This document shows positions 26,199-43,128 of a stretch of 64,000 nt of DNA, in pieces. Position 1 is the stretch's first letter, and every line of letters begins with the position of its first letter. A program made the translations under genes and the position numbers. Below the pieces are notes generated by a model. That model was given only the letters and a program-made list of their open reading frames with translations, ran no database searches and was not told the origin of the DNA. The DNA comes from Candidatus Brocadia sinica JPN1 (GTDB lineage Bacteria; Planctomycetota; Brocadiia; Brocadiales; Brocadiaceae), in the NCBI RefSeq assembly GCF_000949635.1, contig NZ_BAFN01000001.1:3159052-3223051 (forward strand). The letters are read 5' to 3'.

Positions 26199-26493
26199 AG
26201 AAGTCTTAAAAAGGATGTTGACCTTCAAAGGCTATTCATTTTCGTGTTGGTTTGTAGTTTCTATCCATTGGCATTTCTATTGCAAGTTGGATCAACTTAT
26301 TAGTGATTATTCTTAACTCGAATGTAAACAAATTATGAATTGATTATCATAAATTGATGTAATTATAGGCAAATCATTCAGTTACACGTCTTAAATAGTG
26401 TAAAGTTTGCGATTCAATAAAATTAAAACTAACCTGGGAGCATAACAACTTGTCTAATATCCTGGATAAAAATTCTAAAAAGGAGGAAAGATT
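26199..26493. other. Leader of the encapsulin operon
   Basis: No gene is visible in 295 bases. The promoter of the encapsulin pair must lie here or farther upstream. GATTATCATAAATTGATG around 26342 is AT-rich with some symmetry, but no operator is clear. A very strong ribosome site, AAAGGAGGAAAG, precedes the encapsulin ATG. Confidence 0.45.
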
Positions 26494-27627
26494 ATGGGTG
26501 CGGCAAATAAATTTAAAACATTTCATGGTTTGACAGGGGTTGTTGCCCTGCTCGCGATGTTTTGCCTTCCACAATTGGATTCGTCTGTTTTTGCAGCGTG
26601 TGCGAAAGAAGACGATTGCCTTTCGTGTCACACTTCACAGGAATTGAGAAAGGAACATAAGAATTGTGAATATTTGAAGCAGGGCTGTCTTGTGTGCCAT
26701 ACAACGCCAGTGGCCCCGCCTGATTACAGAAAGATGGGAGAAGCACCTGGTGCGTGTCCGCAAGGAGATATACGCTCCGGGATGAAGGAGCCAGGGTTTG
26801 CGGGAATTACTTCAGAAGTGCATCTTGGACATGAAGATTGGGAGAAGATGCAACGTGCGGTCCATGAGACAATTGAGAGTCATCTTGTGGGAAGGAAGTT
26901 TCTTGGAGTTTACGGCCCCCTCGGGACAGGTGCCCAATGTGTTCCTCTGGATACCTACGGTATTCCTTCCTGGGCCAGTGTTGATATGCTCGGTGAGGGC
27001 AATGAAGCCATTCACTCTTTAAAGAGAGATATTGCCCATATACCTCTTATTTACAAAGACTTTTGGCTCTTCTGGCGGGATATAGAGGCCAGCAAAAAAT
27101 GCGAGATACCGTTGGATGTAAGTGCGGCGATTGGTGCGGCTGTTGCTGCCGCTGTCAGGGAGGACGATCTTATATTTAATGGTTGCCCAGAGATGAATAT
27201 GGCAGGACTTTTGAATGCTCCTGGGAGGAATATCCTGAAGCTCGGTGACTGGTCGGTGATAGGAAATGGTTTTCAGGATGTCGTATCGGCTGTGGAGAAA
27301 CTGAGAAGCGCCGGTTTTCTTCCCCCTTATGCCCTTGTAGTAAACCCAAGGCTTTATGCCCTCCTCCATAAGGTTTATGAGCGTACAGGAAAATTAGAAA
27401 TAGACGGTGTAAAAGAGCTGGTGAAAGGTGGTGTATATCAAAGTCCTGTACTGAAAAAGGACGTTGCGCTCGTAGTAGCAACGGGGAGGCAGAACCTGGA
27501 TCTGGCCGTAGGAACAAATTATACAGTAGAGTATTGGGGTCCCCAGGATTTGAATCACCGATTCAGAGTTGTAGGGAGTTCGGCGCTCAGAATTAAATGC
27601 CCTCAAGCCATCTGCACAGTGGAGTAA
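26494..27627 (+). CDS. Encapsulin shell protein with signal peptide and N-terminal dihaem domain
   Basis: 377 residues. Residues 10-35 are a signal peptide (VVALLAMFCLPQLDSSVFA). Two c-type haem sites follow, CLSCH (42-46) and CLVCH (65-69). From about residue 108 the protein is an HK97-fold encapsulin (family 1): RKFLGVYGPLGTGAQCVPLD, KDFWLFWRDIEASKKCEIPL, LDVSAAIGAAVAAAVREDDL, GDWSVIGNGFQDVVSAVEKL, and the closing beta-region VGTNYTVEYWGPQDLNHRFR with VVGSSALRIKCPQAI. Encapsulins self-assemble into closed shells around a cargo enzyme. Cytochrome-fused shells paired with a nitrite reductase-HAO cargo are known from anammox genomes. The signal peptide implies assembly outside the cytoplasm, perhaps in the anammoxosome. 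The ribosome site AAGGAGGAAAG is very strong. The cargo gene starts 3 bases after the stop. Confidence 0.9.
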   Translation: MGAANKFKTFHGLTGVVALLAMFCLPQLDSSVFAACAKEDDCLSCHTSQELRKEHKNCEYLKQGCLVCHTTPVAPPDYRKMGEAPGACPQGDIRSGMKEPGFAGITSEVHLGHEDWEKMQRAVHETIESHLVGRKFLGVYGPLGTGAQCVPLDTYGIPSWASVDMLGEGNEAIHSLKRDIAHIPLIYKDFWLFWRDIEASKKCEIPLDVSAAIGAAVAAAVREDDLIFNGCPEMNMAGLLNAPGRNILKLGDWSVIGNGFQDVVSAVEKLRSAGFLPPYALVVNPRLYALLHKVYERTGKLEIDGVKELVKGGVYQSPVLKKDVALVVATGRQNLDLAVGTNYTVEYWGPQDLNHRFRVVGSSALRIKCPQAICTVE

Positions 27628-27630
27628 GTC

Positions 27631-30258
27631 ATGTTTGTTAAGTTAGGGACTTACTTAATAGTAGTGTTTGCACTCCTTTCCCTCTGGTTTCGATATGGAT
27701 ACGCTGAGATTCCCTGCCTTGCTGGAAAGGATGGAATCGTTGACCTGGAGATGGAGGCCAGGCCTGTAGCGATAGAACTCAGACCCGGGATATTCTTTGA
27801 TGGCTGGGGGTATTGTCTGAAGGGAGAAAAACCCACCGTACCGGGTCCCACCATCAAGGTGAGAGAAGGGACAAAGATCAGAATCCATCTCACCAATAAG
27901 CTAACCGTTCCTGCCTCCGTGCATCCACATGGAGTAAAATATACCGTAGCCAATGATGGCGCCCATATTGCAGGAAATCCCACGAGTATCGTGGAGCCAG
28001 GGAATTCAAGAACCTTTGAATGGGACACCACAGGTACACCGGGTACGTGGTTTTATCATACCCACGCATTTGAAAAAGGAGGAGAAGAGGGATTATATAG
28101 GGGATTATGGGGCGCACTCATTGTAGAACCGAAAGGGGGTGACGCTAACCCTCCAGACAAAGAGTTTGTCGTCTTCATGCATACATTTCATGTCAATGGG
28201 CAGGAATATGAAACCTTTAATGACAAATCAGGGGATATGGAGTTTATGAAAGGGGACAGTTCCGCCTTCCCTGGTCTGCTCTGGAAGGCAAAGATGGGAG
28301 AGAAGGTACGGTTTCATCTCATAAATTCTGCAGAGGAGGAGCATACCTTTCACACCCACGGCCACCGCTGGGTAGATCGGGCCAGTGGGCAGCTTATCGA
28401 TAACATCGGTCTGGTACCGTTTACTTCCTATGTCCTAGATTTTATTGCCGGTGAAGATGTCGGACCAGGCAACTGGGCGTTTCACTGTCACTTCCATGAG
28501 CACATGATGAATGGCATGTTTGGGATTTTCGTGGTGGAAAAGGGAGAGCCAAAAATAACGATGAAGGGAACGTCTTCCCCTTCTGGGGGGGGCAGGAATA
28601 TCCCCCGGGCTCAAGCGCTCCCTGAGTTCCCCATTCCGCCAGTCGAGGCGGGGAGTGGAATCGCATTTCAAGCGCCTCCTTCTGAAAGTCCCCCTCCTAC
28701 CCTTGAAACGTTACCGGGGTCTTTGACATACCAGGATCCATTATTGAAAAGCCTGTATGAAGAGTTTGTCGGACTAAGCCAGGGTGACGGCCCCTGGGGC
28801 GAATTTTATAAACCGATCCCTTTGTACACCTATTTTAATCCAGCCAGACATTATCTTCCGCCTGATAGCCAGGATTATAAAAGGCTCCTGGAAAAGTACA
28901 GACCTGACCAGTGTGTTGAATGCCACGAGGAATCCTCGCCTGGCATTGTGAATGAGTGGAAGGTGTCCAATCATGCCAATCCCAGGAAGAACCCGGAAGT
29001 CGCCGCAGAGACCCGGGAAATCGAGGAACTGATCGGTAAGGAACTGAACAACTGGAAGCCGGGGACAAAGGATGGTGTTTACTGCTCCTATTGTCATGGT
29101 GATGATCATGAGAATCTTTTTATGCCAACAGTCGATAATTCATGTGGCGCATGCCATCCGAAACAGGCACAGGAGTTTGCAAAAGGGAGGGAGTATGGAA
29201 AACCGAGCCATCCTCACAGCTGGGAGGGAAGTGTATCCGTTCCGTGGTATGTTGAACTTTATAGACGTGGTGAAGGGTACTCTATGGTGGGATGTGACCA
29301 GTGTCATCAGAATATGTCATCATGCGACGACTGCCACAGCCGGCATCGCTTTTCGGCTGCTGAGGCACGCCGTCCCGAGGCATGTTCAGGCTGTCATATG
29401 GGGCCAGACCACCCTGACTGGGAGAGTTACGAACATTCCAAATGGGGTGTGATATATCATACGACCGGAGAACTGTGGGATTGGGAAAAGAATCTCTCTG
29501 ATGTGATCCCCGGTAAAGATTACCTTGCCCCGACCTGCCAGTACTGCCATATGTATGTGGGTGATGGGCGGTGGGAGATGAATGTAGAAACCAAGGGCAT
29601 ATGGCGCATGGGTGTCATTCCTCCCAAAGAAGTAGAGTTTAAATCCGGACTGAAGGATTTTCCGTATGGCATAAAAATACCACCCATGGATAAGAAACTT
29701 GAAATATACTCAGCAGAAAGCAAGGAGAAACGCCGCCAGTGGATAGAAATGTGTGCAAGGTGTCATAGCATCAGGTTTTCTGATATGTGGCTTGATTCTC
29801 TGGATCAATACATGTTTGAATCATGGCGGAGGATTGATGAGGCACAGCTCATTGTGGAAGAGCTCTTTGCCAAAGATATGGTTAAACCGTCTCCGGAGGA
29901 AAGACCACCGTTTCCCTTAAGTGATTTAATCGTCAAGGTGCTTGGTCCAGAGAAATTAGGTACCGAAGTTTATAGCCTTTTTAAAAAGACCAGTGGCCAC
30001 TTGCCGGTTCTTGGTCCGGTTCTTGGCGCCTATGCCATATTTACCCGGAACGACGGGAATCCAAGTGGTGTAGAACGGGAGTATGTGGAAATGTGGTTCT
30101 GGAACCACCTGCAGGGATACAAGGGCACCGCCCATGCCCAGCAGGACATCAGCTGGTGGTGGGGCACTGCCAAAACGATGGGCAATGTGACCCGTATCCG
30201 GGACGAAGCGTTGAAATTACAGCGTTTAAAGAACATTGAAGATGCAGTAAAAAAATAA
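27631..30258 (+). CDS. Encapsulin cargo: multicopper (nitrite reductase-like) oxidase fused to octahaem HAO-like domain
   Basis: 875 residues. Signal peptide 1-25. A two-cupredoxin multicopper domain spans about 30-305: HPHG (98-101), HTH (143-145), HTHGH (241-245) and the HCHFHEH (285-291) with downstream M, the copper-binding set of multicopper oxidases. A Pro-rich linker (315-365) leads to an HAO-like domain with eight CxxCH: 428, 485, 505, 555, 565, 585, 636, 708. Haem spacing and EHSKWGVIYH fit HAO. The C-terminal QDISWWWGTAK lies where active HAOs have PDYTQWHG, so the Tyr that crosslinks the P460 haem seems to be Ile. That favours a reductive or non-P460 role (nitrite, NO or hydroxylamine chemistry). 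It is translationally coupled to the encapsulin. The C-terminus (KNIEDAVKK) may serve as targeting peptide, but this is unproven. Confidence 0.87.
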   Translation: MFVKLGTYLIVVFALLSLWFRYGYAEIPCLAGKDGIVDLEMEARPVAIELRPGIFFDGWGYCLKGEKPTVPGPTIKVREGTKIRIHLTNKLTVPASVHPHGVKYTVANDGAHIAGNPTSIVEPGNSRTFEWDTTGTPGTWFYHTHAFEKGGEEGLYRGLWGALIVEPKGGDANPPDKEFVVFMHTFHVNGQEYETFNDKSGDMEFMKGDSSAFPGLLWKAKMGEKVRFHLINSAEEEHTFHTHGHRWVDRASGQLIDNIGLVPFTSYVLDFIAGEDVGPGNWAFHCHFHEHMMNGMFGIFVVEKGEPKITMKGTSSPSGGGRNIPRAQALPEFPIPPVEAGSGIAFQAPPSESPPPTLETLPGSLTYQDPLLKSLYEEFVGLSQGDGPWGEFYKPIPLYTYFNPARHYLPPDSQDYKRLLEKYRPDQCVECHEESSPGIVNEWKVSNHANPRKNPEVAAETREIEELIGKELNNWKPGTKDGVYCSYCHGDDHENLFMPTVDNSCGACHPKQAQEFAKGREYGKPSHPHSWEGSVSVPWYVELYRRGEGYSMVGCDQCHQNMSSCDDCHSRHRFSAAEARRPEACSGCHMGPDHPDWESYEHSKWGVIYHTTGELWDWEKNLSDVIPGKDYLAPTCQYCHMYVGDGRWEMNVETKGIWRMGVIPPKEVEFKSGLKDFPYGIKIPPMDKKLEIYSAESKEKRRQWIEMCARCHSIRFSDMWLDSLDQYMFESWRRIDEAQLIVEELFAKDMVKPSPEERPPFPLSDLIVKVLGPEKLGTEVYSLFKKTSGHLPVLGPVLGAYAIFTRNDGNPSGVEREYVEMWFWNHLQGYKGTAHAQQDISWWWGTAKTMGNVTRIRDEALKLQRLKNIEDAVKK

Positions 30259-30510
30259 ACCACAGGATCACCCGGTACAGCATAGCTACAACCAAATCCC
30301 CCTTGAAAAGGGTAACAACCCCCTGAATTCCCCTTTGCTAAGGGGGACTAACTTGATAGTATAGGAATTTTCATTTTTTTAATGCGGGTTTGTGGAAAGG
30401 CGGCCTGTCTGCCCTGCCGGCACAAACAGGGAATGGGAGGGTTGAGCTTTGCTTTCTCTTCGAGTTGTACCTCAACCCAATTTACCAATGTTGAAATTAT
30501 CCGATGAAGA

Positions 30511-30577
30511 ACCCACCCCTTACCCCTCCCGAGAGGGGATTTCATTTATTCCCCTCTTGGGAGGGGCAGGGGTGGGT
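30511..30577. repeat. Long GC-rich inverted repeat
   Basis: The left arm 30511-30538 (beginning ACCCACCCCTTACCCCTCCC) and right arm 30551-30577 (ending GGGGCAGGGGTGGGT) are near-perfect complements around a 12-base AT-rich loop. It is followed by TAAATAA, not a T-tract. It may act as transcript end for the encapsulin operon or be a dispersed repeat. Confidence 0.6.
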
Positions 30578-30681
30578 AAATAATAAATGAACACAGAGGT
30601 ACAAATTGTGTCATATCTTGTGGGAGAAAAGAGTCCGCAGCAGGCGATAAGTTCACGTACAAGAAATTTCAAAGTTATACA

Positions 30682-30765
30682 GGTAGGAGCCGTCTCCTGT
30701 TGGCGACTTGTGGCGCTTGCAAGCCGTTGTGAATTACCAATCGCCGTCAGGAGACGGCTCCTACC
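30682..30765. repeat. Inverted repeat with perfect 18-bp arms
   Basis: GGTAGGAGCCGTCTCCTG (30682-30699) and its exact complement CAGGAGACGGCTCCTACC (30748-30765) enclose 48 bases that also hold partly complementary phrases (TTGGCGACTTG and AATCGCCG). TTTTT follows the right arm. The form suggests a MITE- or REP-like element. Confidence 0.6.
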
Positions 30766-30818
30766 TTTTTCTCCCAAAAAGTCGCCGAAGATAAGGAATT
30801 CAAAGTCGCGATTGTAGT

Positions 30819-30834
30819 GCGAACTTCAGTTCGC
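30819..30834. repeat. Small hairpin repeat
   Basis: GCGAACTTCAGTTCGC has two 7-bp arms around TC. A related GCGAAC recurs at about 30843. Its theme, an intergenic hairpin after TTGTAG, is similar to the hairpin at 3819-3846, where TTGTAG also precedes it. Confidence 0.4.
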
Positions 30835-31064
30835 TTATCGATGCGAACTAATTTATTGGGGTTTTTCAAAAACTAAATTGTTACCAAAAGTAAATGCAGT
30901 AATTCCTGGTAGCTGCAGAAATTCTGAAATGACAAGGTTTTTCATTGGCAGCATTTTTCATAAAGGATATGATGCGAAAAAAGCGAATTAGCTAACTGGT
31001 TTTTTTGTTCATCGTTGGATTAAGCGGAGCGAACCTATCAATAATGTCTTAGGGAGCATGCCCC

Positions 31065-33304
31065 ATGACCAAATGGACAACAAATGGTCTGTTTCCGTTC
31101 TTCTTGTCATCAGGCATTTTACTCCTAAGCGTCGTTCCTTTTATTTCACCCAAAATTCTCGCCGAAGGCACAGACACGTCCTCAACTTTGATATTGGGAA
31201 CAACCCGGTCAGTTGAAACCACCTCCAGCAAAAAGGAGAAACATACACGTGATGTGGAGGCTGCCGTTGCGGAAGAACTCGTAACCGAAGCCATCTGGTT
31301 TGGATTTGGGGAGGAAGTAGCAATTGCTACAAGACACGAAAGCCCCATCGGCAAGGCTCCCAGCATTGTTACCGTAATTACCGTCCGGGACATTAAGAAT
31401 TTGGGGTATCGCACCTTTGTAGAAATTTTAAGGACGGTACCGGGATTTGAAATTTTAAAGGATGATTCCTTTGGGGCTGTAGTCCCCAACGTGCGGGGAC
31501 TAATAGGTTCAGAGAAAATACGGGTGATGCTTAATGGACATCTCGTAAATAATCCTTTCAGCGGCGGGGGCATTTACTTTATTTGACGATTTCCCCCTGG
31601 AAAATATAAAAAAGATAGAAATCATCCGTGGCCCGGGTTCCGCTGTTTATGGTGAAAATGCGTTTTTAGCGGTCGTAAATATTATTACGATAGATGCGAA
31701 GGATATTGACGGCGTAAAGCTGAGTAGTGGTTACGGGAGTTTCGATACGTACGAGGAAAATGTTGTGTTTGGTAAGACATGCGGCAAGGTCGAGTTCTCC
31801 GGGATGGCCCGTTACAGGCAGACCACCGGTTTTGATGGTATTGTCGAGAGGGATAGACAAACAATAAATGATAACATCAGTTCTTCTTTACCTCCTCCTT
31901 TCAATTTCCCGGCAGCCTCCCAGGCTCCGGGAAGGGTGCATGACGGGAGGCAGGAATACGACCTGAACCTAAGAGTTACATACAAAGATTTCTACGTTGA
32001 GGGGTTATACATTAATAAAAATAAGGGACCTTTTATCGGTCCTCAATTTGCTCTGAATGACGAGTCTGATGTGGAAACTAACTATGTCTTTGTTGATGCC
32101 GGGTACAGGAAAACCTTTGAGGAAAGATTTACCGTAAAACCCAGGGTCTATTATGATCAATTTGATGACAATATTTACATTGAATCATTACCGGAGGGTG
32201 GAACTCTGGATAGGAACGGTGACGGATTCCCCGATACTCGTTATCCCGATGGACTTATTGGAAACGGCAAGGTGATTGAGAAGATTGTCGGTACAGAGAT
32301 TCCCTTTGATTATAAATTGTTCGATGGAAATATCATTACCCTGGGACTGGAATATCGTTTGATCAATCAAACCAATGTCCATTTTTTGAGCAATTTTCAT
32401 CCAGTAACACTGGAGCCTCTGGATTCTATCCAGAATTTTTCGGATTCTTATCCCTTTTTGGAAGAAGCTACACGAAGGATATGGTTGGTTTATCTGCAGG
32501 ATACCTGGGACATTACTGATACCTTACACCTCACCCTGGGGGGCAAGGCATGATCAATACAGTGATTTTGGCGGTGCGACCAGTCCACGTTCGGGTTTAA
32601 CATGGGCATTTATGAAGAACGCATCACTAAAACTGCTTTACGGAGAGGCCTTTCGCCCACCTAATTTTCAAGAGATGTTTACCACCAACCAGCCTGCTAT
32701 TGAGGGAAATAAGGATTTAGATCCTGAAACGATTCGAACATACGAGGTTGGATTAAGTTACCAGTTTAACAAACATGTTACCAGCAGTGTTAATTATTTC
32801 TATAATGACATCGAGGACCTCATTGTCTTACGTACTGCTGAATCTGCTAATGAACCCGCACGTTTTGAAAATTTTGGGGATGCCCATGTCCAGGGTGTTG
32901 AGATGGAGACCAGGGTGGATATAACAAAAGATAATTATGTCTTTATGAATTATACCTTCCAAAATCCGGAAGATAATCACGGAAACGATCTGCCATCCGT
33001 TGCTCAGCACAAGGGCAATTTTGGTATGAACGTGCATTATTGGAAGTATATCAATACCAACCTGAGCACCTTCGTCAGCGGGACCCGTTCCCGGAAAGAT
33101 GATAACCCCAGGGACGACTTGCCGGCTTATGCACTGCTTAATCTTTCGATCATTGCAAAAGAGTTCTTTAAGACCATGGAGGTGCAGGGGACGGTGTTTA
33201 ACCTGCTCGACAAGGACTATAGCGACCCGGGGCCCATGGCTATACCGGACGATCTCCCCAGACCCGGACGAACATTTTTTGTTGGATTGAGCTATCAGTT
33301 TTAA
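31065..33304 (+). pseudogene. TonB-dependent outer-membrane receptor, two frameshifts
   Basis: Three frames together give a complete receptor of about 746 residues: signal peptide (31065 onward, LFPFFLSSGILLLSVVPFIS), plug domain (GKAPSIVTVITVRDIKNLGY, FVEILRTVPGFEI, VMLNGHLVNNPF, IEIIRGPGSAVYGENAF) and barrel ending in RTFFVGLSYQF with the terminal Phe of outer-membrane proteins. The first break is at about 31570, in a run of five G; removing one G restores SGGAFTLFDDFPLENIKKIE. The second is near 32543, in a run of six G; removing one G restores LTLGARHDQYSDFGGATSPR. Both would be fixed by dropping one G, so sequence error or slip-strand variation are as likely as decay. Such receptors import siderophores, haem, B12 or other large ligands; the ligand is not evident. 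Confidence 0.85.
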
Positions 33305-33608
33305 CACACACGAAAAATCCTCTTTCAATTCTTTATCGAACGTCCTGTATATACCCTGCTTAACTCTCTCATACCTTTGGCTATATTTCCCCTAAAAATT
33401 TCAATAATTGCGTGATAGTAATATTTGTAAGGTAGTACAGTTTCTTCATTTTCCTCCGCTGGTTCAATCGTCCCCGATTGAACCGAAACAGCCCGATGAA
33501 TTGTTTCTTGTAATTTCAAGGAGAGGGCTGTATTATAAAATCTTTATTTTTGTCGCGATTATCAAAGATAATAAGTGTGAAATCGACAAAATCCAATGAG
33601 GATCTGGT
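33305..33608. other. Spacer with a 10-bp hairpin before tatC
   Basis: GGTTCAATCG (33461-33470), TCCC loop, CGATTGAACC (33475-33484) is a perfect hairpin without T-tract. A 64-codon open frame on the - strand (33325-33519) overlaps it but has no known pattern and is not called. A GAGG-type ribosome site stands before the tatC GTG. Confidence 0.4.
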
Positions 33609-34955
33609 GTGGAAAAGACAGAGACAGACGAAGTAACAAGTGAAATTGAAAATATCCGGATGTCATTAGGTGCACATCTGGAAGAGTTGCGGCGGCGGGT
33701 TGTCTATTCCATTATCGCCATTGTTTTTTGTTTCATATTGTGCTGGTTTTTCAAGGTACAGATACTGGATATGGCGAAAAGACCCCATAAGTTTGCCATG
33801 GAAAAGGTCGGTTTGTCAACTGAGTTGCAGGTACTCAGTTACCAGGAGGGTTTCTATGCCTACATGAAGCTGTGTTTTATAACATCAGTTTTCCTGGCCT
33901 ATCCGTTTGTCATTTATCAGATATGGAAATTTGTGAGCGTAGGACTCTATAAAAGAGAGCAGAGGTATGTGCTTTTATTTCTCCCAGTCTCGTATGTGGC
34001 ATTTGTGGTGGGGGGGCTTTTCGGGTATTTTTTGCTCATCCCTTTTGGTCTGCAATTCCTGATCGGTATCCTTGGTCCGGGTATTCAACCCATCATCACC
34101 ATGAAGGATTACGTCTCATTTGTTTTCCTGCTGACCGTGGCGTTGGGATTGGTATTCCAGTTACCGCTCGTTATGCTGCTCCTTTCCAGGATCGGATTTG
34201 TTACACCGGATAAGTTTATAAAGTGGCGAAAGTATGCCATTCTGGTAATATTCATTATTGCCGCCATTGTCACGCCACCGGACCCTTTTACGCAGACCAT
34301 GACAGCCGTTCCCATGATCGTCCTCTATGAGTTGGGAATACTTATTGCCAGACCCACACGAAAGGGATTTGTCTACTTAGGTTCGATTGTTGGGTGTGGA
34401 TCGTTACTCGTAGTTGCAGTATTTTTTTATTTGACGCATAAGGGCGGAGAAATCAATCTGGTACAAACACATGGTGAAATTCATTTTTTGTATCCGGAAG
34501 GTAAGGAATGGAATAAAGTATCAAACCATACCAGTTTCCAGAGTGGTATTACCCTAAAAACCGGTAGCGAGGGAAGGACTGCCTTATCCACAAAGAAAGG
34601 TATCGATCTGGGTATGGACTCAAATACCGAAGTGCATTTTATCGACCCGTTGAAAATACAGCTGAAATCCGGGCAAGTCCTCATTTCTGTAAAGGAATCA
34701 GAAGTGCCATTAGAAATTGATACCCCGAACGGACGGATTAAAACAAATAAGGGCACTTTGAATATCCAGGCAAGGGATTTTGTTACCATCGTGACGGCTG
34801 TAAAGGGTGAGGCTACATTATTATTAGAGGGCGAAGAGAAAAAGTTACTGGAAGGACGGCAACACAAAATGACCATTGGCGGCGAACCCGTTGACATCGG
34901 GTCTGTCATTAATTGGTCTGAAGGTGTATTGATCGAACCGAAAGAAATGAAGTAG
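33609..34955 (+). CDS. tatC: Sec-independent translocase TatC with C-terminal FecR-like domain
   Basis: 448 residues, start GTG at 33609. TatC proper covers residues 18-250: SLGAHLEELRRRVVYSIIAI, YMKLCFITSVFLAYPFVIYQ, YVSFVFLLTVALGLVFQLPL, FVTPDKFIKWRKYAILVIFI, VTPPDPFTQTMTAVP, with six membrane segments. Typical TatC stops near residue 250. Here a seventh hydrophobic segment (255-276) leads to a 170-residue beta-rich domain like FecR/DUF-type anti-sigma sensors (SFQSGITLKTGSEGRTALST, MDSNTEVHF, LKSGQVLISVKES, VPLEIDTPNGRIKTNKGTLN). With TatC C-terminus in the cytoplasm, the extra segment puts this domain outside. TatC recognises twin-arginine signals. Its partner TatA/TatB is not in the window. 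Confidence 0.88.
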   Translation: MEKTETDEVTSEIENIRMSLGAHLEELRRRVVYSIIAIVFCFILCWFFKVQILDMAKRPHKFAMEKVGLSTELQVLSYQEGFYAYMKLCFITSVFLAYPFVIYQIWKFVSVGLYKREQRYVLLFLPVSYVAFVVGGLFGYFLLIPFGLQFLIGILGPGIQPIITMKDYVSFVFLLTVALGLVFQLPLVMLLLSRIGFVTPDKFIKWRKYAILVIFIIAAIVTPPDPFTQTMTAVPMIVLYELGILIARPTRKGFVYLGSIVGCGSLLVVAVFFYLTHKGGEINLVQTHGEIHFLYPEGKEWNKVSNHTSFQSGITLKTGSEGRTALSTKKGIDLGMDSNTEVHFIDPLKIQLKSGQVLISVKESEVPLEIDTPNGRIKTNKGTLNIQARDFVTIVTAVKGEATLLLEGEEKKLLEGRQHKMTIGGEPVDIGSVINWSEGVLIEPKEMK

Positions 34956-35189
34956 TGCTTGCCAGCTTTAAAGAAGTACGATTTACGAACTATGATGTGA
35001 GATTTCGCCGTGAACGTTCAGCCGAACGATTTTAAAAATCAACATTAAAGTGTCATAAGTATGGTTTTTAGATACTCAATTTTTATTATTCCTTCTTTAA
35101 TACCGACATTTACTTTTTTATTTTCCTCAATGGGGCAGATACATACCTCTTTACCCTTGACACTCATAACGGAAGACACCTTCGAATAG

Positions 35190-35450
35190 TCGCTGTATAG
35201 TATTGAAAAATCGCAGGAAATCGACCTCCAGGAAATAACCTTTATTGATCCCTATGGTATGGTTGGCCTTCTCGGGTTGGGAGAACTTCTTAAAAAAGGT
35301 AATGTTCAAAAAACCCTGCGTCTTCCAAAATCAGAAGAAGTCATCAAATACCTTGAACGGGCGGATTTCTTCAGATTTGCTGGTGATTATTTCGCGCTTA
35401 AGCCGTCGAAACCGCAGATAACAGAAAAATATCTGAGGGGTTTTCATTGA
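35190..35450 (+). pseudogene. STAS-like protein fragment
   Basis: The frame reads SQEIDLQEITFIDPYGMVGL, then LGLGELLKKGNVQKTLRLPK, SEEVIKYLERADFFRFAGDY and a short tail, ending at 35450. The beta-strand plus helix order, with IDPYGM in the place of the phosphosite loop, resembles the STAS-like proteins that pair with anti-sigma-type ATPases. An in-frame stop at 35187 leaves no good start codon, so it is probably a truncated remnant. Confidence 0.45.
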
Positions 35451-35695
35451 AATATGACCTTGGTGCCATTGAAAAGGCCTTGCGTCACGGCGTGTTACGA
35501 CATGCTGAAAAAGGAAGAGGTCACGGCCTTACCGCCGTAAGGCGTTTTGTCAATCAATGGAACGGCAAACGCTCCATCCGCTCGGGAACTGCAAAACTCT
35601 CCATAATTCCTCAATGGGCTTGGGGGAAAGAGAGAGAACTCAATCTCACCCATTTCCCTGGTGTTCAGATCAGCATCCTTCTGCCGGAAATGTAA
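35447..35695 (+). pseudogene. Anti-sigma-type (HATPase_c) ATP-binding protein fragment
   Basis: From TTG at 35447 (overlapping the preceding stop) the 82 residues read MKYDLGAIEKALRHGVLRHA, EKGRGHGLTAVRRFVNQWNG, KRSIRSGTAKLSIIPQWAWG and a tail with FPGVQISILLPEM. The GRGHGL motif is the G-box of GHKL ATPases and FPGVQI-LLP a typical end. The N-terminal N-box is missing, so this is the C-terminal half of an ATPase. The STAS-like remnant before it fits as a former partner. Confidence 0.5.
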
Positions 35696-35828
35696 CTGAT
35701 GATTGACTTTTAGATAAGTAAAACTATAATTCAGGTAATATTAACTATAGAGGCAAGATTATGGCAACGATAACGAAAAAGGAACAAATAACAATACCCA
35801 AACCATTCAGATAAAATTGCTCTAAATT

Positions 35829-37051
35829 ATGATTTGCAAAAAATTGGGAAGACATCCAAGTCAACTGCAGATTTTTCTGTTCAAGAAGCTGTTCACATAC
35901 ATTTTATCATTGATAGTGCTGATAATAGTGTTGTCCTCGTCACTTTATGCTCAACACATTGCACGCCGATTGGGTCATCCCACCACACGTTTTGCCGACC
36001 CAATCCACACACCGGAGGATCTGCGTAATCGGTTTTCCTCGGAAGAGCTCAGGGCCGATATTGCTGTTATTGTAAGCCTATGCGACGGCTGGCAGGGCGA
36101 CATTGAGGATTTTTACCTCGCTGCAGCAACCGCGCCGATTACACCATTGCAGATACCCATCGGTGCCCGTTTGCCGGCTATGTCCGCACGCAAGAACGGC
36201 GAATTAATTCTGCACCGTGATGTACTTTGGATGGGCAATGAGCCGATCGACGCATATGAATTCTCTTTTTATTCAAAAGGCCGTCGTTACCGTTGTGTAA
36301 CGCCTAAGCTCTGTTGCAATTTCTGGGTCGAAGACCTTGGCCCGGACCAGCGCGCTCCTGTCCTGATAATCGAGTGCAACGCGCCGGACGCTGTTACTGT
36401 TAACCGTCCGGTGAAAGTTTGTCTGACGGTAAAGAATATCGGTGATGCACCGGACGAGTTGGTCACCGTAAAGCTACCGGTCCCCAGAGGTGCGATATTT
36501 GTCAGATCAACCGGCGAAACCAACGCAGCTGCGCGTCGCGTGGTCTGGCGCATCTCCAATCTTGTACCCGGGTCAAGCAAACAACTCTGCGCAAACTTCA
36601 ATGTGCAGCAATCCGGTTCCCTGACGTTTGAATCCTCCGCACGTGGAGTTGTCGCCCAGCCGGTGGAAACATGGTGCGCACCCGCGTCTCAGGCATACCG
36701 GCGGTTCTTTTTGAAGTTATTGACCTTGAGGACCCCATTGAAGTTGGCCATCAAGACACCTACGAACTTCGTGTGATCAATCAAGGTTCGACCACGCTCA
36801 CCAACGTAAAAATCGTTTGCACACTCGAACCCAGCCAGCAGTTCGTGTCGTGCGTCGGCGCAACGAATGGCCAAGCGCAAGGAAATACCATTGTAACGGA
36901 TCCTCTGGCCACGCTATCCCCGAAGGATACGGCCAAATGGCAAATTGTTGTCAAGTCCATTGCATCCGGAGATGTGCGCTTTACTGCTGAACTTGGGAGC
37001 GATCAATTCCAACGCCCCATAAAAGAAACCGAAGCAACCCGGCAATACTAA
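35829..37051 (+). pseudogene. Secreted repeat-domain (DUF11-like) surface protein, frameshifted
   Basis: The N-terminal frame starts MICKKLGRHPSQLQIFLFKK with a signal segment (FTYILSLIVLIIVLSSSLYA). Then a region typical of planctomycete secreted proteins (FYSKGRRYRCVTPKLCCNFW) and a DUF11-like beta domain (NRPVKVCLTVKNIGDAPDEL, VTVKLPVPRGAIFVRST). Near 36672 the frame is lost by one missing base; the + frame 36671 continues TRVSGIPAVLFEVIDLEDPI, EVGHQDTYELRVINQGSTTL and ends at 37051 after a second DUF11-like domain. Together about 407 residues. Such proteins are exposed on the cell surface. Decay and sequence error cannot be told apart. Confidence 0.65.
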
Positions 37052-37092
37052 ACTGCTACCGGTTTGCAGGGGGATACGGGTAAATTTGCGTT

Positions 37093-37197
37093 CATTTTGA
37101 AGAAATAGATAAGATATTAAAAGAATTAAAAAAGAATAGAAGTGAAGTTGTCTGGGATGCAATAACGAAAATGGACAATACTTACAGGAGGCAGTAA
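37093..37197 (+). pseudogene. Ribbon-helix-helix antitoxin remnant
   Basis: The frame reads EEIDKILKELKKNRSEVVWD and then AITKMDNTYRRQ with stop. KELKKNRSEVVWDAITK is like the second helix region of CopG/RHH antitoxins (KNRSEVVRDAI). The N-terminal beta-strand is lost. It precedes a PIN-domain remnant, which fits a broken toxin-antitoxin pair. Confidence 0.45.
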
Positions 37198-37204
37198 GCT
37201 ATAG

Positions 37205-37401
37205 AAAAGGGCAGAAAAGATTAAAAAGATTCGGCGTGATTTCTGGATAGAAGCCGGGGAGACCGAAGCTCTCTGGTTGGCGAGAAGACTTGATTGTGCA
37301 ATGGCAGTAGATGACGGACCAACAATAAAGGCGTGTAAGGTTATTGACCAGAGATTCACGACCGCGATTCATTTTTTGTTTTACTGTTTGCTGTCCGTTT
37401 A
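37205..37401 (+). pseudogene. PIN-domain (VapC-like) toxin remnant
   Basis: The frame reads KIRRDFWIEAGETEALWLAR, then RLDCAMAVDDGPTIKACKVI. GExEAxxLA and DDGPxIKA are the second and third acidic blocks of PIN nucleases. The first Asp region is missing and no start is visible, so the toxin is truncated at the N-terminus. It lies 7 bases after the antitoxin remnant and overlaps the end of the opposite PfkB gene by 3 bases. Confidence 0.5.
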
Positions 37402-38352
37402 GAAAGCCCTTTCCCCAAAAACGGATCCAAAACGTTTATTAAATGATTCGGGGGTAAAATGAAAATTTTGGGGCCCATATACTTCTACGCAATAGGCAGC
37501 ACAAACGGCCCCTATTTTCGCGGCATGAACGACATTATTTTTTGATACCATGAGCCCCTTGATTAACCCAGCCCTGTAAGCATCACCGGCCCCGGTAGGG
37601 TCATTTATCTGTTCCGCCTTGGCAACGGGAATATCAATGCTTCTGATTTTGTTATTTTCTTTAACCATGATAACGGAACCAAATTCTCCTTTTGTTACGA
37701 TGAGTGTTTTGGTCTTTTCTAAAATATCGTCGATCGACATGGAGGTTTTTTCCTGAATTAACTGCTGCTCATAGTCATTACAGATCAGGATTTTTGAACC
37801 ATGTATCATCTCCGTCAAAAGCTCTTGTGTCCAGGCAGGAAGGGATTGCCCGGGATCAAATATGTAATCAATCCCTTTCTTTTTATAGAGAGTTGAAAAA
37901 TTAACCATGTCGCCCAGATTTCCCGGTGCAACTATCGCAAGGGTCTTTTCGGGTATCACGAAATCAAAATTAACTTCGGAATTGAATTTCATCGCGCCGG
38001 GATTAAATGCGGTTATCTGATTGTCTGATTGATCAGTCGTTATATATGCACCGGCAGTGAGTTCCGTATTGATAATTTTAATGTGCTCTGTGGAAATTTT
38101 ATTCTTTTTTAGCCAGTTTCTGTAAGGTTCAAAGTCGCGTCCTCCGGTGGCTATTATGGTTGGATCTTCACCAAGCAGCGAAAGTGCGTAAGCAATATTG
38201 CCGGCTGTGCCTCCAAAATTCTCCATTAAACCGTTTATCATAAAACATACGTTGAGCATGTGAATCTTGTCTGGAAGTATGTGGTCAGAAAATTTTCCCG
38301 GAAAGTCCATAATCCTGTCGTAAGCCAATGAGCCGGAAACAAGAATGTTCAT
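37399..38352 (-). CDS. PfkB family carbohydrate/nucleoside kinase
   Basis: 317 residues, like adenosine and sugar kinases of the ribokinase fold. NFGGTAGNIAYALSLLG is the N-terminal PfkB signature and DPTGAGDAYRAGLIKGL the C-terminal one, in which the Asp of GAGD is the catalytic base. It phosphorylates a sugar or nucleoside hydroxyl with ATP in the cytoplasm. Overall wording (ILVSGSLAYDRIMDFPGKF) is nearest to adenosine-kinase-like proteins, but the substrate cannot be fixed. An AGGAGG site precedes the ATG on the - strand. Confidence 0.88.
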   Translation of the reverse strand: MNILVSGSLAYDRIMDFPGKFSDHILPDKIHMLNVCFMINGLMENFGGTAGNIAYALSLLGEDPTIIATGGRDFEPYRNWLKKNKISTEHIKIINTELTAGAYITTDQSDNQITAFNPGAMKFNSEVNFDFVIPEKTLAIVAPGNLGDMVNFSTLYKKKGIDYIFDPGQSLPAWTQELLTEMIHGSKILICNDYEQQLIQEKTSMSIDDILEKTKTLIVTKGEFGSVIMVKENNKIRSIDIPVAKAEQINDPTGAGDAYRAGLIKGLMVSKNNVVHAAKIGAVCAAYCVEVYGPQNFHFTPESFNKRFGSVFGERAF

Positions 38353-38684
38353 TTAGTCCCTCCTTCTTAGACTAATAAATCTTTGATATTAAATTAGGTT
38401 TTGTTTTGCTCTGCAAAACAAAACGACATTACCTTTTTCTGTTATTCCTGTGTAAACGGGAATCCAGATAAAAAGCGTCGGGATTCCCACTTTCGTGGGA
38501 ATGACATGATAAGAACAATCTACTTTAAAATTCCTTAGCATCAAGTCAGTACTACCAGCGTAGCTAGTGGCTCACTAGCCCTAAAAGGGCATTGTTACTG
38601 GTGTCCCTTAAGGGATACTCTCCGCTTTATTTTTTAATCTGGAATGCTCTCCATTTGCACGGTTATTAATGTACAATATACCTC
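38353..38684. other. Spacer with hairpins between the PfkB gene and IS3 element
   Basis: No gene is visible in 332 bases. ATTCCCAC (38483-38490), TTTC loop, GTGGGAAT (38495-38502) is a typical dispersed hairpin. GTTTTGCTCTGCAAAAC near 38400 and CTAGTGGCTCACTAG near 38563 add short palindromes. Confidence 0.45.
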
Positions 38685-38749
38685 TGTGCCAATAATAGTT
38701 GGACACTTTCCCATATATAGTTTAGTGTAGGGTGGGAAGGAGAAGATCT

Positions 38750-39241
38750 ATGAAAAATAGTAGTCCAATAAGTCTAAAAACAGATAACCTGTCTGTGGAA
38801 ACGGGAGGAGCCCGCAGGGCGACTGGAGTTTCCACAGACAGTGCAACCCAACCTGGTCATTTTCCTGATCCTGAGGTAACAGAGAAGGCTGTTCGCCGGA
38901 AATTCACCGCAGCATATAAACTCCGCATTCTTCAAGAGGCGGAGACATGTGCTACACAGGGTCAAATTGGGGCGCTTTTACGCCGTGAAGGACTCTACTC
39001 GTCCAATCTCACCACATGGCGTTGTCAACAGGAGAAAGGCGCCCTGGAATCGCTTTCCCCAAAACATCGCGGCTCAAAGGCGAAAAATATCGACCCCTCC
39101 GATCGTCGTATTGCTGAACTGGAAAAAGAAAACCGTCAACTTAAAGAGAAACTCAAACAGGCAGAAACTATTATTGACGTCCAAAAAAAACTCTCGGAAA
39201 TACTTCGGAGACCACTGGGTACAACAGGAGAGAAGATATGA
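38750..39241 (+). CDS. IS3 transposase OrfA (helix-turn-helix)
   Basis: 163 residues from ATG at 38750, which has GAAGGAGAAG as ribosome site; a GTG 18 bases earlier lacks one. The helix-turn-helix is in VRRKFTAAYKLRILQEAETC and IGALLRREGLYSSNLTTWRC, and a leucine-zipper-like helix follows (RIAELEKENRQLKEKLKQAE). The N-terminal 50 residues are variable. OrfA binds the IS ends and controls transposition. The stop overlaps the orfB start (ATGA), so translation is coupled rather than the usual programmed frameshift. Confidence 0.8.
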   Translation: MKNSSPISLKTDNLSVETGGARRATGVSTDSATQPGHFPDPEVTEKAVRRKFTAAYKLRILQEAETCATQGQIGALLRREGLYSSNLTTWRCQQEKGALESLSPKHRGSKAKNIDPSDRRIAELEKENRQLKEKLKQAETIIDVQKKLSEILRRPLGTTGEKI

Positions 39242-40221
39242 TGCGCGCCGCCGAATCTCTTGCTCAACATGTGTGCATCAAAAAGGCCTGCAAGGCACTG
39301 GGTATCCCAAGAGCGAGTTATTATTACTACCAAAAGTGCAAAAAAGACCTTTCTTGCAAAAGGGTATCTTCGACGCCTCCACTGGCATTGTCAGAGCAGG
39401 AACAGCAATCGGTTCTTGATATCTTCCATAGCGAACGCTTTCTTGATAAGGCCCCGCATGAGATGTATGCAACTTTGCTTGATGAAGGAACCTACCTGTG
39501 TTCCACGAGAACCATGTACCGTATCCTGAAAAAACATGGTGAAGTACGTGAAAGAAGAAACCAGGCGCTCAGACCCAATTACCAGAAGCCGGAGCTTCTG
39601 GCAACGGCTTCTAATCAGGTATGGTCATGGGATATAACAAAACTCAGAGGACCTGCAAAGCGGACATATTTCTATCTCTATGTCATTCTCGACATCTTCA
39701 GCCGTTATGTGGTCGGATAGATGGTTGCGCACCGTGAACAGGCCATATTGGCACAACGGCTTATCGCTGATACCTGTAAAAAACAGGCTATCAAGCCTGA
39801 ACAACTGGTGATCCACGCTGATCGCGGCCCAAGCATGACATCCAAGCCTGTGGCGTTTCTTCTGTCTGATCTGGGAATAACAAAAAGCCATTCTCGTCCT
39901 TACGTCAGTAACGACAACCCCCTACTCGGAGTCACATTTAAAACCCTCAATTACGGGCCGGATTTTCCGGATAATTTCGGCTCAATTGAGGATGCCAGGG
40001 TCTTTTGTAAGAACTTCTTTACCTGGTACAATAGAGGACATCATCATTCCGGCATCGGACTTTTGAAACCGGAAGACGTCCACTATGGACGTACGGACCA
40101 AATTATGAAAGAATGGAGTCTTGTCTTAAAAACCGCCTTTGAAAATCACCCTGAACGATTCAGAGGTATACCGCCATGTATGCCTATGGCTGCCTGGATT
40201 AATCAACCAAAACAAGATTAG
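39238..40221 (+). pseudogene. IS3 transposase OrfB with in-frame stop and masked catalytic Glu
   Basis: The N-terminal frame (39238-39720) has an HTH_21 domain (CIKKACKALGIPRASYYYYQ) and the first catalytic Asp in VWSWDITKLRG. At 39718-39720 the expected Trp codon is TAG (SRYVVG-stop-MVAHREQ). The next frame goes on with the second Asp in HADRG. The third motif should read DNPYSESQFK, but reads DNPLLGVTFK because of one extra C in CCCCC (39918-39922) and one missing A near 39935; the 15 bases between are read out of frame, losing the Glu. Full length would be 327 residues. Unless TAG is read through it yields only 160 residues. Confidence 0.85.
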
Positions 40222-40702
40222 ACTCTGCCTTTAGAGTCTAAATTATTTAAAAAAGTGTCTAATTTTCATTGACATATTCCAAATTGGTTCCATTTTAATG
40301 TCTCCTTTCTCTAGAAAGTCTCCAATAAAAAATCGCACAATATTCCACAGAGAATTAAAAAGGAAAATTTAACAGGAAAAGACTATTTACAGAAATTGGT
40401 GACACATTGGCGACGGTATTTTCGAATGTTGAAAAGTTGTAAGTATCTGTAAATTAAAATGTTAAAAAATGCCGAAGCAGGGAGTTGAACCCTGACCCCG
40501 TTGCCGGGACTAGACCCTGAATCTAGCGCGTCTGCCAATTCCGCCACTTCGGCTGATAAGAAATCGAGAGCAATGATTTTAAAGAATAAAAATAGTCAAG
40601 TCAATGGAATTTTAATAAATTGACCTTGCATTACTGTTGACAATCTGTTACGATTCCCCATTATTTTTGGTTATTTGACAATTATTTATTTGGTAGTATA
40701 AA
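40222..40702. other. Spacer with IS end, tRNA-Leu and smpB leader
   Basis: The IS right end is at about 40274. AT-rich DNA (40275-40470) has no gene. The tRNA-Leu gene occupies 40471-40553, opposite to smpB, and the remaining 149 bases form the divergent promoter space. Confidence 0.5.
40471..40553 (-). tRNA. tRNA-Leu (anticodon CAG)
   Basis: On the - strand the 83-nt RNA starts GCCGAAGTGGCGGAATTGGC and ends CTGCTTCGGC. The 7-bp acceptor stem GCCGAAG/CTTCGGC closes. The anticodon arm is CTAGA-TTCAGGG-TCTAG, giving loop TTCAGGG and anticodon CAG, reading Leu CUG. A long variable arm (TCCCGGCAACGGGGTC region) marks a class II tRNA, and the T arm is CAGGG-TTCAACT-CCCTG. CCA is not encoded. A short T-rich stretch (ATTTTTTAAC) follows and may end transcription. 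Confidence 0.95.
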
Positions 40703-41140
40703 ATGGAAATTATTGCCAAGAACAGAAAAGCGTATTTCCAATATGAAATTCTGGAAAAGTTTGAGGCGGGCATTGTGCTTACAGGAACAGAAGTCAAATC
40801 GATCCGGAATAAGGATGTAAGTATCAATGAAAGCTTTGCTCACATTGATAATGGAGAAGTTTTTATTCACGAAATGCATATTGGACAATATAAACAGGGG
40901 AATAGACAAAATCACGAGCCGAAAAGGGTTAGAAAACTGCTTTTACACAAAAGAGAAATCAGTAAGATAATCGGGAAGGTTACACAAAAGGGATATACGA
41001 TGGTTCCACTATCTTTATATTTTAAGGAAGGTATAGTAAAGGTGGAACTTGCCCTTGTGAGAGGCAAGACGACTATTGATAAACGTGAGGATATTAAAAA
41101 ACGCACCATAGAGAGGGAAATCCAGAGAGCCATGAGATAA
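40703..41140 (+). CDS. smpB: SsrA-binding protein
   Basis: 145 residues. It reads IAKNRKAYFQYEILEKFEAG, IVLTGTEVKSIRNKDVSINE, SFAHIDNGEVFIHEMHIGQY and ends DKREDIKKRTIEREIQRAMR; these are SmpB signatures (GxExKSxR, basic tail with DKRxxxKxR). It carries tmRNA into stalled ribosomes for trans-translation. No tmRNA gene was recognised next to it. The response-regulator-like gene follows 49 bases later. Confidence 0.95.
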   Translation: MEIIAKNRKAYFQYEILEKFEAGIVLTGTEVKSIRNKDVSINESFAHIDNGEVFIHEMHIGQYKQGNRQNHEPKRVRKLLLHKREISKIIGKVTQKGYTMVPLSLYFKEGIVKVELALVRGKTTIDKREDIKKRTIEREIQRAMR

Positions 41141-41189
41141 TTTTGGAATTCTTTATGGCAGACCCGCAAGAGAAAGTGAAAGGGGGAAT

Positions 41190-41609
41190 ATGCCTCCTGT
41201 AAGGATATTGATTGTAGAAGATGAACGTCAGACAGTTGATGCGTTAAGGGATTTGTTTGAACAGAATGGCTACGAAACTGAAGTTGCCCTTAATAAACAA
41301 GTGGCATTAGCCATACTCCAGGAAAGGAAAATGGATCTTGCAATCATAAGCACCAAGGTCCAGGAGATTTCTGGTTTAGAAATACTGTACGAAATAAAAA
41401 AGATAATTCCAAACATACCTATTATTGTGGTCAGTGACCAAAAATCAAAACGAATTGAATCTTCTTTCATGAAAGCAGGCGCAAATGTTTTTCTTGCAAA
41501 ACCTTTAGAATCATTGTTCGTCTTGCAAACGATAGAAAATTTATTAATAGCTCGATTTGCCATTGCCACACCAAAAAAAACAAAGTCGTACTCAAAAAGC
41601 AAGAAATAA
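41190..41609 (+). CDS. Receiver-domain protein lacking the phosphoacceptor Asp
   Basis: 139 residues forming a CheY-like receiver, with a short Lys/Ser-rich tail. The metal-binding acidic pair is present (LIVEDER, E10 D11) and so is the Lys in FLAKPLE. The phosphoacceptor block reads MDLAIISTKVQEISGLEI where a normal one reads DLVILDxxMPxxxG, so the Asp is Ser (residue about 54). It can probably not be phosphorylated in the usual way and is a pseudo-receiver. It has no output domain and overlaps no kinase; the carboxypeptidase gene follows 25 bases after the stop, suggesting co-transcription. Confidence 0.8.
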   Translation: MPPVRILIVEDERQTVDALRDLFEQNGYETEVALNKQVALAILQERKMDLAIISTKVQEISGLEILYEIKKIIPNIPIIVVSDQKSKRIESSFMKAGANVFLAKPLESLFVLQTIENLLIARFAIATPKKTKSYSKSKK

Positions 41610-41634
41610 TTTCTTTCTCGTTCCTGTAAGATTT

Positions 41635-43128
41635 ATGCATTGTTTCAAGTTAAATGTAAGAGTATGTTTTCAGACCTTTGCATTTTTCTTCATGTTTGGC
41701 GCAATTTTTACCGCCATTCTCGAAGCAAAAGTAATAAATCCCGGCAATCTCAACAATCGCCTCCAACTTCTTCTGTTAAAAAATCCATCTCTTAAAAATG
41801 TGTCGTACGGTATTAGCATTGTTTCCTTAAAAAAGAACTCTTCCCTCTTCAATTACCGAAGCAATGATTTATTCAGTGTTGCTTCCAATATGAAACTTCT
41901 TACCACTTCAGCAGCCCTGGACTATCTGGGACCAGATTTTGAGTATAAAACAATTATTAAAACCAATGGTAGAATAGCGACCTCAGGGGAACTGAACGGA
42001 GATATTATTATAAAAGGAAGTGGCGATCCGAATATTTCAGGGAGATTTTACGGAGGGAATATCTTAGCCATTCCGGAATCCTGGGCACAGGCTGTCAGAA
42101 ACCGGGGTATTTGTGCAATTACGGGAGACATCATAGCGGACGACACTATATTCGATCGTATGTATGTTAATCATGATTGGCCGCAAAACCAGTTGTCGGC
42201 GTGGTATTGCGCCCCAAGCTGTGGGTTATCTTTTAATGATAATTGTGTCGATATCACGGTCATTCCGGACAAAAAACCGGGGAGAGTTGTAACACTTTTA
42301 ATAGAACCGGGCACTTCGTATTTTACCATCTTTAATAGCTGTGTTTCTACAACCAACAAAAAGGAACACACGTATTCTATCCATCGGAAACCTGATACGA
42401 ACCATCTGTTTGTCAAGGGAAAGTTCTGGGTCAATGCATCTCCTGAAAAGACGTGGGTGACGGTACATAATCCGGCGCTTTATCTCGCAACTGTCTTTAA
42501 GGAAATTCTCGAAAAGAACGGTATTGCAGTGCATGGGAATGTTCGATTGATTGATGAGAGTGATTCGGTTAAACCCGATTGGGAAATAATTACACAAACC
42601 ACATCTACAATGGAACAGACCGTTTTCGTAACGAATAAACAGAGCCAAAACTTTTATGCCGAACAGATAATAAAAACCCTGGGAGCACAAATAAAGGGCA
42701 GAGGGACTTTAGAGGCTGGGACAGAGGTTATCCAGGAATTTATGACCAAATTAGGTTTTCAGCCTGAGGAATATCAGATTGATGATGGATGCGGTTTGTC
42801 GAAAAATAACCGGCTTTCACCCAAAATGATAACTACTCTTCTTGCATATATGAGTAAGCATCCGCACGCAAAGGTGCTGTGGGATTCTTTGCCCGCTTCA
42901 GGTACAGACGGAGGGTTACGGAGGCGAATGATTTCTCCGCGATACAAAAATAAAATACATGCAAAAACCGGCTATATTGCAAAGACATCAGCGCTTTCCG
43001 GATATATCGATGCCTCGCAGGGAGATATACTTGTCTTTTCAATTCTTGTGAACAATTTCAAAAATCTCAGTAAGGTCATGAAACTACAGGATGATATTTG
43101 CCAAACTTTAATAGATTGTTACAATTAA
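41635..43128 (+). CDS. dacB: D-alanyl-D-alanine carboxypeptidase/endopeptidase (PBP4 type)
   Basis: 497 residues from ATG at 41635; an earlier in-frame ATG at 41557 lies within the preceding gene. The N-terminus is hydrophobic (FQTFAFFFMFGAIFTAILEA), a signal peptide or anchor. Penicillin-binding motifs: SxxK as SNMK in SVASNMKLLTTSAALDYLGP, SxN as SKN in DDGCGLSKNNRLSPK, and KTG in IHAKTGYIAKTSALSGYID. The PBP4-type insert domain lies between. It trims or cuts peptidoglycan cross-bridges in the periplasm, in line with the presence of a thin murein in anammox planctomycetes. Confidence 0.9.
   Translation: MHCFKLNVRVCFQTFAFFFMFGAIFTAILEAKVINPGNLNNRLQLLLLKNPSLKNVSYGISIVSLKKNSSLFNYRSNDLFSVASNMKLLTTSAALDYLGPDFEYKTIIKTNGRIATSGELNGDIIIKGSGDPNISGRFYGGNILAIPESWAQAVRNRGICAITGDIIADDTIFDRMYVNHDWPQNQLSAWYCAPSCGLSFNDNCVDITVIPDKKPGRVVTLLIEPGTSYFTIFNSCVSTTNKKEHTYSIHRKPDTNHLFVKGKFWVNASPEKTWVTVHNPALYLATVFKEILEKNGIAVHGNVRLIDESDSVKPDWEIITQTTSTMEQTVFVTNKQSQNFYAEQIIKTLGAQIKGRGTLEAGTEVIQEFMTKLGFQPEEYQIDDGCGLSKNNRLSPKMITTLLAYMSKHPHAKVLWDSLPASGTDGGLRRRMISPRYKNKIHAKTGYIAKTSALSGYIDASQGDILVFSILVNNFKNLSKVMKLQDDICQTLIDCYN

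Follow-up and report, generated by a model that had tools for sequence, protein, structure and literature searches.

Organization of the tatC locus

Within the window, the entire stretch of 64,000 nucleotides analysed here, an uninterrupted reading frame on the forward strand (33609..34955) starts at a GTG with GAGG seven bases upstream and encodes a protein of 448 aa, in which a TatC core is followed by a seventh membrane segment and a FecR-like domain. A whole-genome search recovered this fused copy as the only TatC gene; two TatA/B-type genes lie elsewhere, with products of 75 and 69 aa when read from the probable start codons. The intact frame, free of internal stops and matched by the Pfam models of both TatC and FecR, bears out the fusion that a sequence-only reading of this DNA had proposed.

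The core (33675..34313; residues 23-235) comprises six membrane segments and is covered in full by Pfam PF00902 (E = 6.3e-67; 225.9 bits against a cut-off of 25.1). It scores 194.7 bits against the NCBIfam TatC equivalog TIGR00945 (cut-off 132.7) and matches TatC chains of the PDB with E-values from 1e-37 to 8e-30. The motifs HLEELR and TPPDP and the Glu after GLY, which we take to be the signal-peptide and polar residues of TatC, are conserved across the 31 rows of an alignment (A3) and line up with E. coli TatC. Judged by these sequence features, the core is an ordinary TatC.

A six-segment TatC has both termini inside the cell, so that a seventh segment would place the last 170 residues outside. 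This segment (TM7; 34359..34442), put at about residues 253-276, appears as a seventh hydropathy peak at about 254-272 and, in the AlphaFold model, as a single helix at 251-278, with strands from residue 282 onward. Directly before it stands a positively charged loop with the pattern P-[ST]-[KR], shared by every row of A3 except L138 (30 of 31). With a pTM of 0.51, the full-length model does not fix how the C-terminal domain sits against the membrane part. Three predictors applied by Medema et al. 2010 (PMC2881027) put the corresponding extension of Kuenenia TatC outside the cytoplasm. Together with the hydropathy profile and the known topology of the family, these predictions indicate that the domain would lie on the exit side of the membrane, and the outward placement first suggested for it holds.

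Two other features of the window lie ahead of the fusion gene. A TonB-dependent receptor gene (31065-33304) is divided among three frames (31065-31586, 31765-32553 and 32612-33304), the first carrying a Pfam Plug match and the other two being assigned by eye; we regard it as a pseudogene or as the product of indel errors. At 27631-30258 is encoded an 875-aa protein combining a multicopper oxidase with a multihaem cytochrome c (Cu-oxidase_3, Cu-oxidase_2, Multi-haem_cyto). Among 30 tatC loci compared (three genomes being entered twice), 20-21 are divergently adjoined by ribH, nusB-PHP and ftsY, an arrangement seen in most of the order members compared (for example L098 959-5723 and L048 1136-5755); none of these genes occurs within positions 26001-42000 of the window. 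An assignment of the divergent neighbours to a Rieske/cytochrome b operon was discarded, since Pfam identifies them as ribH, nusB-PHP, ftsY and an sdhB-like iron-sulfur protein, and in view of these identities we claim no functional link.

Fold of the C-terminal domain

The outward domain (34443..34952, forward strand; residues 279-448) is all-beta. Pfam FecR (PF04773) matches residues 315-402 with E-values of 4.6e-6 for the full protein and 6.4e-7 for the C-terminal part alone, both passing the Pfam cut-off, and this is the only FecR match in the genome. The best-conserved stretch of the domain, GRQ..GGEP.D......W (34854..34916; residues 416-436), lies beyond the Pfam match, and the protein terminates 12 residues after its conserved Trp 436.

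AlphaFold modelled the isolated domain with a mean pLDDT of 86 and a pTM of 0.78, as 14 strands and a C-terminal helix. Foldseek matched the model to BDI_1681 (6e-6) and to PupR (2.6e-4), and VIA-align superimposed it on PupR (6ovk) with a Z-score of 15.5 and an rmsd of 2.0 over 117 aligned residues, pairing model residues 35-151 with residues 111-235 of chain 6ovk_R, which correspond to the CJM subdomain. A sequence profile of the domain also matched PupR (4.2e-7). The VIA-align list singles out no family apart from PupR and the BDI_1681 anti-sigma factor; 5ix9, at Z 7.5, was not used as evidence. The FecR fold anticipated for this domain is in this way confirmed.

According to PMC7186176, the CJM of PupR occupies residues 110-238, straight after the membrane helix, and the STN subdomain residues 250-324. 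Over this PupR domain (110-324) our model aligns only as far as chain residue 235, leaving the STN half without a counterpart. Nor does the genome encode an STN domain above the Pfam cut-off (two weak matches were seen), and Pfam detects no N-terminal anti-sigma domain in the fusion protein, whose N-terminus is TatC. The domain is, on the model, the CJM or juxta-membrane half of such a regulator of the FecR type and lacks the receptor-binding STN half. A CJM beta fold that comes right after a membrane helix is also the arrangement of the FecR/PupR sigma regulators (6OVK); unlike them, the fusion has neither an anti-sigma domain nor an STN subdomain. Because the CJM alone is retained, the protein resembles a FecR-type regulator in which the anti-sigma part was exchanged for TatC and the STN subdomain was lost, and this may be how it arose.

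Homology to FecR invites the view that the domain is a transducer relaying the state of export, or of a receptor, to the cytoplasm. We think this very improbable, since TatC stands where the anti-sigma part would be, the STN half is absent and the genome has no second match to FecR and, above the cut-off, none to STN. PMC7186176 assigns a part in the contacts of PupR with its transducer to the linker, beta17 and alpha2; each half of PupR, taken singly, failed to bind the partner. The suggestion that the domain senses or reports on export is weakened accordingly, as it is the partner-binding STN half that is lacking.

Another possibility is that the domain handles substrate on the trans side, holding or checking folded Tat cargo as it leaves. 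The predicted position of the domain next to the exit site and the beta-solenoid, a plausible protein-binding surface, speak for this idea; against it, the C-terminal domain shows neither conserved Cys or His residues nor any enzyme-like motif, and the residues best kept in it are chiefly Gly, Thr and Trp. We consider it unlikely as an account of the domain. The observations would be compatible with the domain holding proteins or serving as a scaffold at the Tat exit.

Conservation of the fused frame

When 75 genomes of the class were searched with the window protein, 69 gave a match, and in 61 of the 75 that match was unbroken as far as residue 417 at least. Matches in two pieces were returned from three genomes: in G022, a single contig, and in G030 the frame is disrupted near residues 272-312, and in G003 the two halves sit on separate contigs. 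In G043, G047 and G049 the match stops at contig ends, and in G062 and G063, both of family f6, at residue 251-253. The six genomes with no match were G032, G033, G037, G050, G069 and G070; since completeness is 96% for G033 and 93% for G037, some of these misses are unexplained. Among named loci (L091-L138), which cover Brocadia, Jettenia, Kuenenia hertensis, Scalindua, Anammoxibacter, Loosdrechtia and others, 45 of 48 extend to residue 436 or beyond, and the other three are cut by contig ends.

Comparison of the window gene with eight genes of the same genus gave dN/dS values of 0.084-0.126 for the extra domain and 0.017-0.070 for the TatC core, TM7 being looser. The FecR-like domain is under purifying selection. 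The original reading had itself named the alternative that a sequencing error at about 34350, a missed stop, joins two separate genes. The disrupted frames of G022 and G030 would be in keeping with errors of assembly in this region, but the conservation of a one-piece frame in 61 of 75 genomes and the dN/dS of 0.08-0.13 for the extra domain rule this out, and we assign it a negligible probability.

Distribution within and beyond the anammox order

The fusion itself has been known since 2010, contrary to the initial impression that it had no standard description: Medema et al. 2010 (PMC2881027) described it in Candidatus Kuenenia stuttgartiensis (kustc0286), with the same predicted non-cytoplasmic placement and likewise as the product of a single tatC, called it unique to anammox bacteria, and speculated that it takes part in protein sorting to the anammoxosome. 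Among the papers listed in a screen of the open literature, none stood out as a second or later description.

Here, all families of the anammox order carried the fusion. The class members outside the order comprised 13 genomes in four families, f6 to f9, and among these the fusion was present in the one genome of f7, the one of f8 and seven of the nine of f9 (the other two gave no match), and absent from both genomes of f6. The C-terminal domains of f9 and of the anammox order are homologous, matching by hhalign with a probability of 99.0% (E = 8.2e-18; 153 columns). Pfam FecR recognizes the domain of f7 (4.5e-10); of four f9 domains scanned, two matched below the cut-off (5e-4 and 6e-4) and two gave no match. 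The f8 domain, to which Pfam FecR gave no match, was matched by a combined profile from which f8 was excluded (4.6e-15). Of 47 TatC cores placed on a tree, all 22 that carry the fusion fall on one side of a branch with support of 97/92; f6 lies outside the fused branch, at a position that the tree does not settle.

Among the matches listed from 195 genomes of the phylum, none outside the class passes residue 276; in one other phylum sampled (that of G244, a genome titled Syntrophaceae) 281 of 297 genomes match and, among the matches listed, none extends past residue 270. None of 32 named non-fused loci (L139-L170) had more than 27 residues beyond the core; by their titles, L155 (Candidatus Brocadiaceae) and L147 (Candidatus Brocadiia) are exceptions among these.

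To compare this distribution with that of anammox, we used HzsA as a marker. Within the order, 44 of 62 genomes yielded a true HzsA, recognized by 63-100% identity across most of its length or by fragments of such a protein; because it was missed in the remaining 18, its absence is weak evidence for any one genome. HzsA searches gave no match in f6, f8 or f9, the failure in all nine f9 genomes being, unlike that in a single genome, no weak evidence; f7 yielded a distant partial match, in two pieces of 33 and 51% identity (G064:C183:46426-47985). The Pfam HZS_alpha model had no match in f6 or f9; we also observed 11 matches to it in f7 and 16 in f8, in large proteins. Given fusions in three families outside the anammox order without orthologous HzsA, and a single branch uniting all fused forms, the fusion is probably older than anammox. 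Its homologues in these families outside the order, together with the definition of the fold and of the missing STN half, are additions to the description of 2010.

These findings bear on the proposal of Medema et al. that the domain steers the one Tat system of the cell, or the proteins this exports, to one of two energised membranes. It gains from the presence of the fusion in all families of the order, from the fact that one TatC has to serve the whole cell, and from the classifier of those authors, which put the Tat system and seven of nine predicted Tat substrates in the anammoxosome (PMC2881027). Set against these points are the fused proteins of f8 and f9, where HzsA had no match, and of f7, where the match is distant; a fusion that arose on one branch including these families predates the organelle or is independent of it. 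We regard anammoxosome sorting as an improbable explanation of the domain.

Other TatC proteins with exit-side domains

Unrelated outward domains occur on TatC in other planctomycetes. Loci of f13, f14 and f36 were picked for their long frames and are not a random sample. TatC of f14 and f13 carries TM7 followed by domains other than FecR, and in the two f36 rows the extension is similar, but no stretch passed the threshold of 1.6 for a membrane segment. In f13 (L071 2201-2794), the seventh segment precedes a HEAT-repeat-like domain (Pfam HEAT_2, 3e-4). A FecR-like identity was considered and rejected for the extensions of f14 and f36 (aligned together as A6; hhalign 0.1%) and for that of f13, in which Pfam shows weak HEAT repeats. 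TatC of f26 and f51 ends in charged tails lacking a membrane segment.

Inserts also occur in the first outward loop: of the 32 named loci L139-L170, 14 have one of at least 34 residues, and in six it exceeds 100. Inserts of about 190-217 residues were observed in L077 (2278-2883), L080 (2356-3006), L150, L154 and L158. Seven inserts scanned against Pfam, L077 and L080 included, gave no clear match, and one compared with PDB sequences gave none. PMC13323110 describes large inserts in different periplasmic loops of TatC from Myxococcus xanthus (9E03) and Nitratifractor salsuginis (9E02), the former a homotrimer that adds to TatC-TatC contacts and the latter disordered in the complex; as the Nitratifractor case indicates, exit-side domains need not form a trimer cap. 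Like the Brocadia protein, both add a domain on the exit side to a TatC core, but their inserts sit within a periplasmic loop whereas the Brocadia domain follows TM6 and TM7 at the C-terminus and alone has the FecR-type fold.

Taking together TM7 with the CJM (Brocadiia), TM7 with other domains (f14, f13, probably f36) and first-loop inserts of 30-220 residues, planctomycete TatC may repeatedly have gained outward domains of unrelated folds, as exit-side platforms that preceded anammox and could later have been used for sorting or placing cofactor proteins at the anammoxosome membrane. We offer this broader suggestion tentatively and think it less likely than not.

Proposed role

The interpretation that we favour, with confidence about evenly balanced, is that of a working TatC that gained a CJM domain once, the domain serving as an exit-side accessory of the TatC trimer (a stabiliser, cap or dock) and not as a signal transducer. 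TM7 and the beta-solenoid CJM half would have been joined to TatC a single time, in an ancestor within the class, TM7 placing the domain in the periplasm or the anammoxosome lumen. By analogy, three copies of the domain would sit around the TatC trimer and might stabilise or cap it, in the way that the unrelated M. xanthus insert does as a homotrimer, or dock a partner on the exit side. Such an accessory domain would not have been invented for anammoxosome sorting, although use in sorting could be secondary.

An anammox cell has two membranes to sort its proteins between but only a single Sec and a single Tat system, and the fused domain was the one odd part put forward to explain how it does so. 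That class members lacking an orthologous HzsA have the domain too points to an origin before anammox and supplies comparison organisms with which the sorting idea becomes testable. Its C-terminal route to the exit side adds this protein to the short list of TatCs bearing exit-side domains.
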